From positions 1-31,121 of IMG/VR virus record IMGVR_UViG_3300009104_000077: a stretch of 31,121 nt of DNA; one strand, 5' to 3'. Positions 16,476 to 27,556 of the stretch are shown one piece after another (position 1 is the stretch's first letter; the number at the start of each line of letters is the position of its first letter). Under the pieces are notes generated by a model that was given only the letters and a program-made list of their open reading frames with translations, did not search any database and was not told where the DNA came from. The translations under genes were made by a program, and so were the position numbers. The DNA comes from a virus.

Positions 16476-16884
16476 CTTCTATAGCCTCCTTAAATGCTTT
16501 AATAACGTCTGATGAAAATAACTTTTGAAGATTAACTAAATACATTTTACTAGCGTTGTGGTCACCACCTGATACAGTTTTAAAATTATCTAATTTATCT
16601 ATTATTAACTTTAACATATCCGTATCAAAGACTAAAGTACAAAACTCTTTATCGCCTACACAAAGATTGTGAAACCAATAATCTGATTCTGTTGCTTTAA
16701 TTCCTGATGGTTTATTATAGCACTCATATTCAATCGCTATGTTTCCTGTATGCATCCACATACCTCTTTCTGATTTAACTTCAATCTTTTTATTTTGAAG
16801 CATGTCTTTGATTTTATCTTCTCTTATTTCTCCATACTCTAAATCTAAATCAAATTTCTTTCTGTCTTCCTTAGTGGGTTTCAC
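16450..16884 (-). CDS. PD-(D/E)xK nuclease-like protein, GTG start
   Basis: 144 aa from a GTG start that lies inside the end of the DNA polymerase gene (14-nt overlap) with GGAG upstream. The pattern E20, then E35-V-K37 (KKIEVKSER), then TGNIAIEYEC (47-55) and PSGI/SDYWFHNL (59-73) fits the restriction-endonuclease-like fold, with E35/K37 as the ExK pair. It could be a structure-specific nuclease or an inactive relative. It is the second of three nuclease-type genes in a row after the polymerase. Confidence 0.7.
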   Translation of the reverse strand: MKPTKEDRKKFDLDLEYGEIREDKIKDMLQNKKIEVKSERGMWMHTGNIAIEYECYNKPSGIKATESDYWFHNLCVGDKEFCTLVFDTDMLKLIIDKLDNFKTVSGGDHNASKMYLVNLQKLFSSDVIKAFKEAIEDEQEKESK

Positions 16885-18607
16885 TCCAATTGTCTCCTAT
16901 ACTGTACTCGGCATCTAACGGACACCTCATCTTATAATAATCTGCTACATCCTTAATAGCCTGTACTGCTACCTCACCAACAAACTCTGCTGTTTCTTCT
17001 GACGTTTCTATCTGCCACTCATCGTGGATATTAGCTACGAATTTGTAAGGTATAGTATTTAATTTGAGTTTACTATCTAAAAGAATTAATCCTCTCTTCA
17101 TCACAAAAGCACCTCCACCTTGTAGTAAAGTATTAAGTGCTGCATGTCTATGTCTAAGTCTTATCTTTCTTCCATCGAGGCCTTTAAGATAGCCTTTGCC
17201 TGAAGCTCTTTCCACTCGTTCTTTAAGAGTAGCAAATGACTTGTTACTACTGAAAAAGCGTTCTCGCAAGACCTTACCTTCTGTTCTGTTTCCTCCAACA
17301 ATACTCCCAATCTTTGCATCTCCTGCTCCGTATATGAGGGCATAGATGAAAGTTTTCGCCTCATCTCTTGATTTAAGTCCAGCAAGTCGTTGGTTAGTTG
17401 TGTGAATGTCTCCGTTGATGATTTCATTAATATACTCCTCGTCAGCCATGTAGTGTGCTAACAGTCTTAATTCTAATTGACTTGCATCTACACCTACAAG
17501 TTTGTTTCCATCCTCAACAATCCAACAGGTTCTGCATTCTTTTCCATAAGGATTATGAACACTTGGAATTTGTGCCATGTTAGGATTGCGATGGCTCATA
17601 CGACCTGTGATTGCTCCTGTTGAAATAACAAAGCCATGAACCCTACCATCATCTTCTAAGGAATCCACCCAGGATTGTATTTGGGCTATTCGTTTTTGAA
17701 GTAATAGAAACTCTGCAATCAGATTAGCTTCATGAATATGATTTATTTTTTTAAGAGTACCTTCATCTACAATAGGTTGTCCTGTTGGAGTAAACCTGTT
17801 TGGTTCCCATCCAAAATCTATCAGATACTCTCCTATTTGTTTTCGAGAACCTAGATTAAACTCAACCAATTTCTTTCTAACAAACGGTTCAGGCTCTTCC
17901 TCACTCTTTAAAAAATATTGGTACTCATCTTCTGTCAATCCTCTTTTAGAAAGAGTTCCATCCTTTTTAATATAAGGTGTTACTGTTTTGTCCTCTACCC
18001 ATTTAGGTTTAAAGGTTCTGTGTACCTCTTCTTCAACTTCCCTCTTTCGTTTATTTAAGGAACCTAATAAAAGCATCGCTTCCTTTTCATTAAATTTAAA
18101 ACCATTTCTACTTTGTTGTTCTAATATCCTGGTAGTTTCGTGTTCTAAATTAACAGACTCTTTTGAAAAACCTTTACTGATGGTTTGAAGATAGTGATAA
18201 AGTTTTTTGTTTAACCTAACGTCTTGTGTACAGTATTTGAGCATGTCTTCATTATAAGAAGTAAAGTCTTCAGGAGACTCTGTCTTGTGATATTCCAAAG
18301 TGAAGCCCCAAGCTTTCAGGCTGTGTCCTCCCTCTCTGTTAGGATTAATTAATCTTGAGATAACTAACGTATCTATAACCTTACACGAGTGGTGTAGATT
18401 AATACCCATCAATTTTTCAATGACAGGTATATCAAACCCTATAATGTTATGACCAATTAAAGTATCGGCTGACTGTAAAAATTTAATTCCTTCTTTTAAT
18501 TGATTAGGTTCAAACTGATAGACTTTATTGTTTTCATCTATCGCTACAATACACCATATTTTTGTAGCTTTTAAATCGTCTGTCTCTATATCAAAAACTA
18601 ACTTCAA
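16871..18607 (-). CDS. polA: DNA polymerase, family A (T7 gp5-like) with 3'-5' exonuclease
   Basis: 578 aa replicative polymerase. Proofreading motifs: D6/E8 (FDIETD), N54/D59 (GHNIIGFD), Y125/D129 (YCTQD). Polymerase motifs: A with D374 and E379 (DASQLELR), B with R414, K418 and Y422 (RDEAKTFIYALIYGAG), C with H528/D529 (NIHDEW). Y422 aligns with T7 Y526, the position linked to lytic phages. T7 gp5 is 704 aa; here the region matching the thioredoxin-binding loop (about 198-255) is shorter, so dependence on host thioredoxin is unclear. The start is TTG, overlapping the primase-helicase stop as TTGA, with GAGGAG upstream. Confidence 0.96.
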   Translation of the reverse strand: MKLVFDIETDDLKATKIWCIVAIDENNKVYQFEPNQLKEGIKFLQSADTLIGHNIIGFDIPVIEKLMGINLHHSCKVIDTLVISRLINPNREGGHSLKAWGFTLEYHKTESPEDFTSYNEDMLKYCTQDVRLNKKLYHYLQTISKGFSKESVNLEHETTRILEQQSRNGFKFNEKEAMLLLGSLNKRKREVEEEVHRTFKPKWVEDKTVTPYIKKDGTLSKRGLTEDEYQYFLKSEEEPEPFVRKKLVEFNLGSRKQIGEYLIDFGWEPNRFTPTGQPIVDEGTLKKINHIHEANLIAEFLLLQKRIAQIQSWVDSLEDDGRVHGFVISTGAITGRMSHRNPNMAQIPSVHNPYGKECRTCWIVEDGNKLVGVDASQLELRLLAHYMADEEYINEIINGDIHTTNQRLAGLKSRDEAKTFIYALIYGAGDAKIGSIVGGNRTEGKVLRERFFSSNKSFATLKERVERASGKGYLKGLDGRKIRLRHRHAALNTLLQGGGAFVMKRGLILLDSKLKLNTIPYKFVANIHDEWQIETSEETAEFVGEVAVQAIKDVADYYKMRCPLDAEYSIGDNWSETH

Positions 18608-20265
18608 AATGCAATCTCCTCAGAATCCGTTTCAATATCATCCATGTTTACCTCTGATAGTCTGCCTGTATTAGTATCATAAACTAAATGCGTAGCCATC
18701 CCTACATCCCCTGTATACCTTGATTTTAATATACGCAATCTCGTAGTCCTGGCTTCTAAATCATCATCAGATTGTTGGTTTCTTTCAAGAGCTATAACAC
18801 AATCAGACAGTTGAGCGATGCTATTGGAACCTCTTAAATGTGATAAAGAAACTTCAATACCATTCTCGTGTCCTCTGTTTCCATCTATCCTTCTTAAATG
18901 AGATACTAAAATAATTCCTGCTCCTGTCTCTTCGACTATACTTCTTAATCTAGTCATGATGTTATCAATTGCTCTTCGTTCATCTCCCTCTTTTAAAGAG
19001 CTTACGAGCATGTGTAGGTGGTCTACTATTACCCACTTGCAATCACACCCTACAATCAAGTATCTAAGTTTAGCAAAGATGGCCTCGATGTCATTAGTAC
19101 CAAAATGAGCATGAATAAAAACCTTATCATTTTTAAAAGTTTTGTCATATTTTTCTTCTAAAGTTTTTTGGTCAAACGAATCTCGAATGTGGTCTATATA
19201 TAATCTTGAGTTGGTTTCAATAGAAAGAATCCCATCTACTGTTCTAGTCCAATCTTCTTCTAAAGCTATGATACCCACGTTGTCTTCTGTCTGATTTATA
19301 ATCCAATGTTCAAGTTCTCTTGTGATACTTGATTTACCTAAACCTGTACCGCCTGTTAAGGTTAAGAGTTCTCCTTGACGCATTCCATAAATTTTTCTAT
19401 TTAAACCTTTCCAGGGGAAGGGTAAACTTTCCTTAACATCCCTATCAAAAAAATCAGTCTTCTTTTCAGATACTCTAATGATACCGCTTGGTGTATAAAG
19501 TTTTGCATCCCACCACGCTCTAGTAAACTGCTCATACTTTTTCTGTTTGAGCATATCATTAGCATCTTTAAATCCGTTAGGAAGAGAAACTATCTTAGCC
19601 TTTCCAGGTTTTAATATAGTAGCTACTTCTAAAGCTGCTTTTTCACCTTGAGCATCTTTGTCAAAACAAATAACAATCTTGTCAAAACTTTCTACATACT
19701 CAAGATTTTCTTTTATATCTTTAACTGCTGATGAAGCTCCTCGTTTAATTGAAACAACCGCCCATTTGCTTCCTAGCAATTCATAGGCTGCCATCGCATC
19801 GCACTCACCTTCTGTAATAGTTAAATACTTACCGCCTTCTTTAAAAAGATTTTGACCAAACAAGGCTGTGCCTGTTGGTGAACCTTCAAATTTAAAACGC
19901 TTGTCTTTAACATATCTAATTTTATTAGCAGTCAATTCGTTGTGAATATAAAAAGGATATATGTGCTGAGATATCCTTCCTTGACTATCATAAACCACCT
20001 TAACCCCAAAACGTTTAGCAGTATCACCGCTAATACATCTATCACTTAAAGCCCCAAAAGAACTTCCATCTACATTAAGATTTGTATTGTAATTTTCTTT
20101 AGGTCGAATTTTTTTTACTACTCCTGGTTTATCTTTGTTATAGTTTGGAAAGAAAGCATCACAACTAAAACATTTAGCCGAACCATCTTCATTAACTGAA
20201 ACTGCATCACTACTTCCGCACTTGTGGCAGGGCAAGTGATACTCCACAAATTTTAATTCTTCCAT
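18604..20265 (-). CDS. DNA primase-helicase (T7 gp4-like)
   Basis: 553 aa, close to T7 gp4 (566). Order: zinc-binding domain with C13, C16, C32, C35; TOPRIM primase core with E152/E154 (TEGECDA) and D202/D204 (CFDKDAQG); linker; then the hexameric helicase with Walker A at 305-312 (GGTGLGKS, K311) and a Walker B-like strand ending in VDHLH. It unwinds the fork and makes RNA primers for the polymerase encoded next, whose start overlaps its stop. The start has AAGGAGA 8 nt upstream, and a long inverted repeat lies in the leader just before it. Confidence 0.96.
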   Translation of the reverse strand: MEELKFVEYHLPCHKCGSSDAVSVNEDGSAKCFSCDAFFPNYNKDKPGVVKKIRPKENYNTNLNVDGSSFGALSDRCISGDTAKRFGVKVVYDSQGRISQHIYPFYIHNELTANKIRYVKDKRFKFEGSPTGTALFGQNLFKEGGKYLTITEGECDAMAAYELLGSKWAVVSIKRGASSAVKDIKENLEYVESFDKIVICFDKDAQGEKAALEVATILKPGKAKIVSLPNGFKDANDMLKQKKYEQFTRAWWDAKLYTPSGIIRVSEKKTDFFDRDVKESLPFPWKGLNRKIYGMRQGELLTLTGGTGLGKSSITRELEHWIINQTEDNVGIIALEEDWTRTVDGILSIETNSRLYIDHIRDSFDQKTLEEKYDKTFKNDKVFIHAHFGTNDIEAIFAKLRYLIVGCDCKWVIVDHLHMLVSSLKEGDERRAIDNIMTRLRSIVEETGAGIILVSHLRRIDGNRGHENGIEVSLSHLRGSNSIAQLSDCVIALERNQQSDDDLEARTTRLRILKSRYTGDVGMATHLVYDTNTGRLSEVNMDDIETDSEEIAF

Positions 20266-20291
20266 TAATTTGTTCTCCTTAAATTAAAGGT

Positions 20292-20430
20292 GGTGCTGAG
20301 TGTAGAGAAGAATGGAGAACAATAATACTTCTTCGTTCCTATATTGTTAGGCTAAGTCTTAGAATGAATAATAAAAATTCTAAAACAAACTTTGACTAAA
20401 AAGTATTTTTGAAACTCTACACCCAACACC
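20292..20430 (-). ncRNA. Candidate structured RNA in the primase-helicase leader
   Basis: A 16-nt arm at 20415-20430 can pair with 20292-20307. Read as minus-strand RNA, 14 pairs are Watson-Crick and 2 are G-U; on the plus strand the same two positions would be mismatches, which points to a fold in the leftward transcript. Inside the ~107-nt loop lie two further inverted repeats, AACAATA/TATTGTT (318-324 with 342-348, offsets from 20000) and TTAGAAT/ATTCTAA (359-365 with 377-383). The element fills the only long gap in the replication operon and ends about 26 nt before the primase start. Function unknown: translation control, processing or an origin-type element. Confidence 0.4.
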
Positions 20431-20446
20431 GTTGGTTAAAAGGAAA

Positions 20447-20722
20447 CTAAGAGGCATCCTCCTTGTTGTTCTCCACCTTCTTAGTTTCACTTTCTTCGAC
20501 AGGACTAGCTTCTATTTCTACTTCTGCTTCAGGAGCGTCACCAAGAAGGGTTTCTAAGTGATTCCTGTGAGTAGCACTAGCAAAATTTAAAGCTTCTAAA
20601 ATGATTTCAAGATTACCGACCTTCTGTATTGTAACAGTAGCTTCAGTCTTCTTGTTTTCATCCTTGATTTTATCAGTGTCGTAGGCTGTCTCGCCATCGT
20701 CTTTTCTAATAGTTACAATCAT
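20447..20722 (-). CDS. Hypothetical protein after the ssDNA-binding protein
   Basis: 91 aa. I place the start at ATG 20722 rather than a longer upstream one, because GGAGG lies 8 nt before it and it follows the previous stop by 1 nt. The first ~60 residues look globular (MIVTIRKDDGETAYDTD), the C-terminus is very rich in Glu, Ala and Pro (PEAEVEIEASPVEES). It sits between the ssDNA-binding protein and the primase-helicase; a replication accessory role is likely by position only. Confidence 0.65.
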   Translation of the reverse strand: MIVTIRKDDGETAYDTDKIKDENKKTEATVTIQKVGNLEIILEALNFASATHRNHLETLLGDAPEAEVEIEASPVEESETKKVENNKEDAS

Positions 20723-20723
20723 T

Positions 20724-21161
20724 TTAAAATTCCTCCCCACCTTCGATGGTATCAAATTCGTCACCATCTCCAGTTTTATAAGATACCAATTCTATGACTT
20801 GCATTGCTTGAAAGTCAAGGCCTTTAAAGTCACCGTACTTGTTTGAGGTTTCCCACTCATTGTACTGTACTTTAACCTTAGACCCATTTCCAACCAACTC
20901 ATCCAAAGGTATTTTATCTTTATCAAAAAGCTTGGGAGCTTTACGAACCATTCCATTTGGCCCATTTACTTTACGTTTAATAGTAATAGCTCGACCAACT
21001 TCTTCATCATTAACTACCAGGTCTTTAACCCTGAAGCCACGATTTTCAAAATCATCAGCTACACTATCCTCTACTACTAGGTCTACTGTGTATACAGGTT
21101 CAAAAGTCGTGTTAGGACTTGTCGCTGATACCCAATAGCCTATTCCTTCTACTATTGCCAT
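20724..21161 (-). CDS. Single-stranded DNA-binding protein (T7 gp2.5-like)
   Basis: 145 aa with a strong AAGGAGG ribosome site. It has an OB-fold-like pattern (VYTVDLVVEDSVADDFENRG, later WETSNKYGDFKGLDFQAMQ) and a short acidic tail ending in Phe (GGEEF), the hallmark by which T7 gp2.5-type proteins touch the polymerase and helicase. It is shorter than T7 gp2.5 (232 aa). It stands directly upstream of the primase-helicase and polymerase, completing a T7-type fork set. The call rests on tail, fold pattern and context. Confidence 0.82.
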   Translation of the reverse strand: MAIVEGIGYWVSATSPNTTFEPVYTVDLVVEDSVADDFENRGFRVKDLVVNDEEVGRAITIKRKVNGPNGMVRKAPKLFDKDKIPLDELVGNGSKVKVQYNEWETSNKYGDFKGLDFQAMQVIELVSYKTGDGDEFDTIEGGEEF

Positions 21162-24953: not shown

Positions 24954-25168
24954 GTTTGTTCTCCATTAAAAATTAGTGTCTGTCCTGCTTCTTTTAAAGA
25001 TTCCCATTGTAAAGACTCCTGAAGTTCTTTAGTAGGATAACCTAGATATTCAGAAAGCACAATTAAGTTAAGTAAATCTACTTGCATTTTCTTTTCTAAA
25101 TAATCTCGATGCTCTTTTAAATCATAATGAGCTTCAAGACCTTTTTGAATATCTTCATCAACGCTCAT
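24950..25168 (-). CDS. Small helical hypothetical protein
   Basis: 72 aa. I choose ATG 25168 (AAGGA 7 nt upstream) over a longer start at 25189; it overlaps the previous gene by 11 nt and the methyltransferase by 4 nt. The product is acidic and helical (EDIQKGLEAHYDLKEHRDYL), with no known motif. Its place is between two overlapping genes in the early accessory block. Confidence 0.58.
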   Translation of the reverse strand: MSVDEDIQKGLEAHYDLKEHRDYLEKKMQVDLLNLIVLSEYLGYPTKELQESLQWESLKEAGQTLIFNGEQT

Positions 25169-26941: not shown

Positions 26942-27166
26942 TTAATCTAATAACACCATGTAGGCATCAGGTTCGTGTTGTATAAACCAATCAAGGCCTT
27001 TACGAACAGTCTTCCATTGATTTAAACGCTCGGCTCCCATGATGGTATCGTAAACCGCTACAGCATCAGGTTGTAAAACAACTTTCTCACCTGAAAAACG
27101 ATTAGCGACTTCGATGGGTTCTTTATCCAGGATAAGACAATCAAAAGGTAATTTTCTATTATTCAT
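26942..27166 (-). CDS. Small hypothetical protein
   Basis: 74 aa. Start placed at ATG 27166, which has GGAGAAAAAA directly upstream; a longer frame to 27211 lies within the previous gene. The sequence (DCLILDKEPIEVANRFSGE, VAVYDTIMGAERL, then WFIQHEPDAYMVLLD) is of a type I have seen in marine phages, with no assigned function. It overlaps the end of the operon's first gene by 8 nt. Confidence 0.62.
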   Translation of the reverse strand: MNNRKLPFDCLILDKEPIEVANRFSGEKVVLQPDAVAVYDTIMGAERLNQWKTVRKGLDWFIQHEPDAYMVLLD

Positions 27167-27530
27167 TTTTTTCTCCGTTTTTAATTTTAGTAGGTTTAAG
27201 TAAATCGTCAAAGAAACTTTCGTAAGCTTCTATAAAACTTTTAAACTCCCTCCTATCTTTTAGTTTAGTAGAGCCTTTGGTTGCCCATTGCTCTGCCATC
27301 TTATCTAAGTCTTTACTTGAAATAGCATCGGCTGCTTTTTCAGATAAAAACTCAATCATAAGTTCTTCAATACTTTTTACATCTTCAAAGTAATCGTATT
27401 GGTCAGTTACATAATCAATACAATCATCTAGTAAGTCTTCTCTATCATCTAACTTCCAAAGCTCTGAAACTGTGTCAACAATAGTCTGTGCTATTTGTTC
27501 TAGTCGTTGGTCATTTCCTTGATGGCTCAT
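27159..27530 (-). CDS. First gene of the leftward operon, acidic hypothetical protein
   Basis: 123 aa, very acidic and helical (KLDDREDLLDDCIDYVTDQY, DVKSIEELMIEFLSEKAA). It has a clear GGGAGAAC ribosome site and stands first after the control region, where early host-takeover proteins usually are. A DNA-mimic or inhibitor role is possible from charge and place but cannot be shown. Confidence 0.65.
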   Translation of the reverse strand: MSHQGNDQRLEQIAQTIVDTVSELWKLDDREDLLDDCIDYVTDQYDYFEDVKSIEELMIEFLSEKAADAISSKDLDKMAEQWATKGSTKLKDRREFKSFIEAYESFFDDLLKPTKIKNGEKNE

Positions 27531-27556
27531 TTTTGTTCTCCCTATTATATTAACAC

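Follow-up and report, generated by a model that had tools for sequence, protein, structure and literature searches.

In bacteriophage T4, the Shine–Dalgarno (SD) sequences of genes e, soc, 49 and I-TevI are hidden in helices (PMC3014915), and the leader of gene 32 carries a pseudoknot operator that is bound by gp32 (PMC3014915, PMC535899). In a review of T4 published in 2010, the T4-type gene 32 pseudoknot was the only viral example that could be named for translational autoregulation (PMC3014915). SAM-V is an H-type pseudoknot riboswitch that hides an SD sequence in Pelagibacter (PMC6061858), and the operator of rpsO (S15) in Escherichia coli is mentioned in the T4 review (PMC3014915). The element described here, from the leader of a viral primase-helicase gene, would work like the SD-hiding helices of T4 and would be shaped like the gene 32 and SAM-V pseudoknots, but would control a different gene.

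As at T4 e, soc, 49 and I-TevI, a structure in cis is proposed to hide the SD of a phage gene inside a longer upstream transcript. The T4 hairpins, however, hide the SD and/or the AUG in a simple helix, whereas here the SD belongs to a replisome gene and its partner is carried by the loop of another helix, one that covaries. As in the gene 32 leaders of T4, T2 and RB69, a pseudoknot (here a proposed one) is found in the leader of a phage replication gene, with an SSB gene in the same operon. The T4 gene 32 knot is approximately 28 nt long and lies upstream of an unstructured ribosome-binding site; it is a nucleation site for gp32, and the gene under its control is gene 32 itself (PMC3014915, PMC535899). 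The knot proposed here would include the SD, and the gated gene would be that of primase-helicase. The arrangement that defines the T4 operator, a knot upstream of the unstructured, UUAAA-rich ribosome-binding site of the SSB gene, was not found at this locus, where primase-helicase lies downstream and its SD is in the pairing. An H-type, SD-occluding knot is likewise the form taken by SAM-V, SAM-II and other pseudoknot riboswitches, and Pelagibacter hosts the nearest isolated relatives of the virus. In contrast to SAM-V and SAM-II, the closing helix (P1) is 14–18 bp long, the loops are variable, and neither a conserved ligand core nor an Rfam match was found. At Rfam gathering scores (SAM-II, SAM-V and preQ1 included), the window and eight related loci gave no match, and the best matches of a permissive Rfam search had E values of 1.2 or more and scores far below the gathering level. 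The rpsO operator is also a pseudoknot in a translational operator, but it serves a cellular gene and has a known protein ligand. No earlier report of the present element was found in the open-access literature, and the sequence evidence points to a new element within the known kind of SD-sequestering RNAs.

The element is situated in a 181-nt gap (positions 20266–20446) that precedes the primase-helicase gene on the minus strand of a 31-kb IMG/VR virus record, analysed here over its whole length of 31,121 nt (the window). The first-pass annotation had called a gap of about 180 nt exceptional for this operon, and so it is: all other gaps in the operon are of 43 nt or less, and many of the genes overlap. 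A search for tRNA and tmRNA genes found none. The relevant features are as follows.

16871–18607, minus strand: DNA polymerase A gene (DNA_pol_A), whose start overlaps the end of the primase-helicase gene (18604–18607)
18604–20265, minus strand: primase-helicase gene, the proposed gated gene (DnaB_C and Toprim; phrog_239, DNA primase/helicase, E value 3e-180)
20263–20265, minus strand: ATG start codon of the primase-helicase gene
20270–20278, minus strand: SD region of the primase-helicase gene, GGAGAACAA, positioned before the ATG; 3′ strand of the proposed helix P2, with a predicted duplex energy of −14.0 kcal/mol with the anti-SD
20292–20307, minus strand: 3′ strand of P1, CUCUACACUCAGCACC, pairing with 20415–20430
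20314–20322, minus strand: anti-SD UUGUUCUCC in the P1 loop, the exact reverse complement of the primase-helicase SD
20323–20414, minus strand: L1, the part of the P1 loop 5′ of the anti-SD, 92 nt, with inner helices specific to the window
20415–20430, minus strand: 5′ strand of P1, GGUGUUGGGUGUAGAG, with 16 of 16 positions paired with 20292–20307; covaries in relatives
20447–20767, minus strand: small ORF directly upstream of the gap, 106 aa as listed, of no family
20724–21161, minus strand: Gp2.5-like SSB gene (phrog_112, E value 6e-7), with 74–86 % identity within the clade described below

The small ORF, which lies between the SSB and primase-helicase genes, encodes an acidic tail and is conserved in the clade; it had no match in Pfam or PHROGs. 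The start of the polymerase gene lies inside the end of the primase-helicase gene, so that gating one start would probably gate both.

We consider it likely that the gap is a cis-acting translational gate, in which a pseudoknot between loop and SD hides the primase-helicase SD and limits synthesis of the replisome relative to that of the SSB. In the proposed mechanism, the message of the SSB gene and small ORF would run on into the long hairpin P1, the loop of which would present UUGUUCUCC for pairing with the primase-helicase SD, GGAGAACAA, just 3′ of P1; this second pairing is P2. P1 and P2 would use different bases and cross, giving an H-type pseudoknot with the SD inside it. Ribosomes would then be blocked at the primase-helicase start and, by overlap-coupling, also at that of DNA polymerase. 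The likely purpose would be one of stoichiometry, i.e. much SSB and little replisome. The gate may be opened by a protein such as the SSB or by an RNase, or it may simply leak.

The two 16-nt arms of P1 had been reported in the first-pass annotation as pairing with two G-U wobbles on the minus strand and containing mismatches on the plus strand. The arms are exactly as described, with 16 of 16 positions paired on the minus strand (two of them G-U) and two mismatches on the plus strand (88 % complementary). When the gap was folded as that annotation had suggested, the minus strand gave −49.8 kcal/mol (z −5.9), and none of 200 dinucleotide shuffles was equally good; the plus-strand fold was weaker (−44.2 kcal/mol, z −4.0). 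Additional inverted repeats claimed for the loop are indeed present (e.g. an imperfect 17-nt repeat at 20320–20336/20395–20411), but they lie in a long loop that is peculiar to the window: 5′ of the anti-SD it measures 92 nt there and 10–30 nt in relatives.

IMG/VR was scanned seven times for related loci, with proteins as guides. Scans one to six gave 377 loci that included the upstream region, representing 123 distinct contexts; the seventh added hardly any new contigs and was left out of the counts. Fifteen of the 123 contexts, the window among them, have a long P1 hairpin (14–18 bp) whose loop carries GUUCUCC in its 3′ part. In a primase-helicase tree constructed by a quick method, these 15 form one clade (SH-aLRT 99) amid relatives with other hairpins; they correspond to about six lineages, with nine of the contexts in one tight group, and are not 15 independent observations. 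The gene order SSB-element-primase-helicase is present in all 15, and the polymerase gene is downstream in the 11 that reach that far. Among the other relatives, the SSB gene is upstream in all 97 contexts with enough sequence, and the polymerase gene downstream in all that were checked. The element pattern occurs at one place per genome in nine whole records, where a reversed-pattern control gave no hit. A strict DNA pattern matched ten stretches in IMG/VR, and only L001 and L023, both already-known loci, had a primase context. The nearest isolates by primase are the Pelagibacter phages HTVC115P and HTVC103P/104P (45–48 % identity). A DNA-level search of isolated phages found nothing alignable within the gap, and the element is absent from HTVC115P, which has a 21-nt gap, and from HTVC104P, which has other hairpins (z −2.7). 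The HTVC104P gap between SSB and primase (L029, 2752–2964) is 213 nt long and structured, with different hairpins.

Pairs were counted on a gapless core of 46 columns and 13 distinct rows, excised manually from the proposed elements because unaided MAFFT misplaced P1 in the L068 group. In this core, 98.4 % of the P1 cells are in standard pairs, and two of the pairs never vary. The first-pass annotation had made its reading depend on covarying pairs in relatives, and these were found: 10 of the 14 P1 pairs have changed on both sides. The number of double-changed cells was 31, as compared with 10.4±2.3 in shuffles, none of 500 of which reached it, and in all slid registers of P1 50 % or fewer of the cells were paired. 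When P1 and P2 were taken together, all five measures were higher than in any of the 500 shuffles, and a shift of the partners by 1–3 columns lowered pairing from 93 % to 39–50 % and double-changed pairs from 10 to 1–4. RNAalifold recovered the same P1 unprompted. When L001 alone is compared with the window, both bases are different in four pairs (columns 2, 11, 12 and 13), and no pair is lost. P1 is a real RNA helix, conserved by compensatory change.

The exact 9-nt complementarity between 20314–20322 and 20270–20278 was missed in the first-pass annotation, and this pairing of anti-SD and SD is the main clue to mechanism. GUUCUCC is present and invariant in all 15 gaps of the clade and in none of the 108 other relatives, and a GGAGA SD is found in 15 of 15 as against 3 of 108. 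Within the clade, GUUCUCC lies 1–6 nt 5′ of the P1 3′ strand, and the SD 5–15 nt past P1. The SD takes the forms GGAGAACAA, GGAGAAUAA, GGAGAACC, UGGAGACAA and UGGAGACGG, of which GGAGAAUAA and UGGAGACAA still pair with the anti-SD by means of G-U or a bulged U. The predicted duplexes of anti-SD and SD (−9.5 to −14.0 kcal/mol) are stronger than those of the 16S tail and SD (−6.4 to −9.1 kcal/mol, for an E. coli-type tail). When the loops were dinucleotide-shuffled, 0–12 of 1000 gave as good a duplex with the SD in eight of nine sequences, L155 being weaker (73 of 1000); in the other relatives, loop-SD complementarity reached P<0.05 in 8 of 103, with a median P of 0.49. A cruder test of whole-gap complementarity gave P values of 0.05–0.92 and was not significant for most L068-type contexts, where the SD window includes part of P1. 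In the window, GGAGAACAA also serves as the SD of a C5 DNA methylase gene (24956–24964, minus strand) and of the gene at 27159–27530 (27533–27541, minus strand), so that the exact 9-nt match partly reflects a preferred SD sequence.

None of the nine P2 pairs has changed on both sides, five never vary, and 84.6 % of the P2 cells are paired in the register without a bulge; the absence of covariation follows from an anti-SD strand that never varies. The locus has the conserved SD-complementary segment in the same transcript that characterizes SD-sequestering elements, whereas covariation of the sequestering helix was not found for P2; P1 covaries but does not sequester. Conservation and complementarity make the hiding of the primase-helicase SD by the anti-SD a well-supported prediction, although covariation does not contribute to it, and P2 would be expected to lower primase-helicase translation. 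The suggestion in the first-pass annotation of a structured RNA bearing on that translation is supported by the P1 covariation and the conserved anti-SD. The role in priming that it also offered found no support, and no result spoke specifically for its third idea, cutting into separate messages.

The layout of an H-type pseudoknot, i.e. P1 5′ strand, loop with anti-SD, P1 3′ strand and SD, with separate bases in the two helices, is apparent in all 15 contexts. P1 and the linker between P1 and SD lengthen together (14 bp with 5 nt, 15–17 bp with 9–13 nt and 18 bp with 13–15 nt), as is expected if the linker must span P1, and the linker lengths permit a pseudoknot. Energies were obtained with ViennaRNA, without pseudoknot scoring, and that of the knot was roughly estimated as the nested energy plus P2, less a knot penalty of 9.6 kcal/mol. 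This estimate favours the knot over the nested optimum in ten contexts, by only 0.7–4.4 kcal/mol, and slightly disfavours it in five contexts of the L068 type. In the nested fold of the window, AAGGAGA pairs with UUUCCUU just past the upstream stop codon, so that the SD would be covered with or without the knot; the cost of opening the primase-helicase start site in the nested model ranks sixth of 28 genes, which is not decisive.

Were P1 and a plain SD/anti-SD hairpin mutually exclusive, the leader could instead be an alternating switch, set by a protein, the ribosome or folding kinetics. In L005, L006 and several L068-group contexts, the P2 hairpin is predicted to be at least as stable as the P1 fold, which makes a switch possible in these contexts. 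The bases of P1 and P2 are all different, however, and the P1 fold is more stable than the P2 hairpin by 8–18 kcal/mol in the window, L001, L002 and L004, so that no switch is expected in them; as a general explanation, a switch is unlikely.

P1, a near-perfect stem of 14–18 bp at an intercistronic boundary, resembles processing hairpins such as those of T7. RNase III or another RNase might part the SSB message from that of the replisome, with the anti-SD of secondary importance. Processing leaves the invariant GUUCUCC and its match to the SD unexplained, however, and the short stems and U-runs of the relatives look terminator-like rather than RNase III-like, which makes this reading distinctly doubtful.

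The invariant loop element could instead be a protein site, for example an operator for the SSB comparable to that of T4 gp32 on its own leader, with an incidental match to the SD. The SSB gene lies two ORFs upstream, and a different conserved UCUCC box (UAUCUCC) is found at the same junction in 61 of the 108 relatives without a match to their SDs. The complementarity of loop and SD, on the other hand, exceeds chance in most clade members and is absent in the relatives, and an operator of this kind appears very improbable. That P1 is an intrinsic terminator or attenuator is scarcely credible: a hairpin with a T-rich tail occurs at the SSB/primase junction in 88 of the 108 other relatives (an upper bound, as our own pattern was a loose one), but only 3 of the 15 clade contexts score as terminator-like, a terminator scan of the window found no strong one at P1, and P1, with loops of 21–107 nt and no U-run directly after it, does not show the combination of GC stem, short loop and immediate U-run of an intrinsic terminator.

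The SD-hiding pseudoknot that is likely at the replisome genes of this clade of uncultured marine phages would have a different RNA device, a terminator-like hairpin, as its counterpart at the same SSB/primase junction in relatives. Replisome output below that of the SSB may be the common theme, achieved by termination in most relatives and by SD hiding in the clade. With two junction devices, the control of SSB-to-replisome dosage in marine phages becomes directly testable. A more specific proposal is rather unlikely: an SSB/replisome valve that is a terminator in most relatives and, in the clade, an SD-hiding pseudoknot that a phage protein, for example the Gp2.5-like SSB, opens or stabilizes, in a manner like T4 gene 32 but of independent origin.

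Several minor observations were made at this junction. In most relatives (L046, L180, L043 and others), terminator-like hairpins, several of them UUCG-looped, run straight into the primase-helicase SD. The UAUCUCC box (TATCTCC in DNA; L034, L035, L063, L102 and others) lies 1–13 nt past the upstream stop codon; the 278 kb of these loci contain only six other forward copies, and no consistent partner for the box was found, among the relatives' SDs or elsewhere. In L139 (listed with L224) the junction gap is 342 nt long; its SD is GGAGAUGU, with a separate, strong hairpin around it. Within the clade, L005 (at about 2845–2890) and, similarly, L006 have an extra GGUAGUCUAUGUGUAAAACUACC-type hairpin before P1, resembling the short hairpin of L136-like relatives. 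The tail of the small upstream ORF contains a second copy of GGAGAACAA in the window (20466–20474, minus strand), a potential competitor of the SD for pairing with the anti-SD in the loop; GGAGAAC is also found in this tail in L005 and L006, and not in L001 or the L068 group. The P1 loop could in principle also act in trans on the C5 DNA methylase gene and the gene at 27159–27530.
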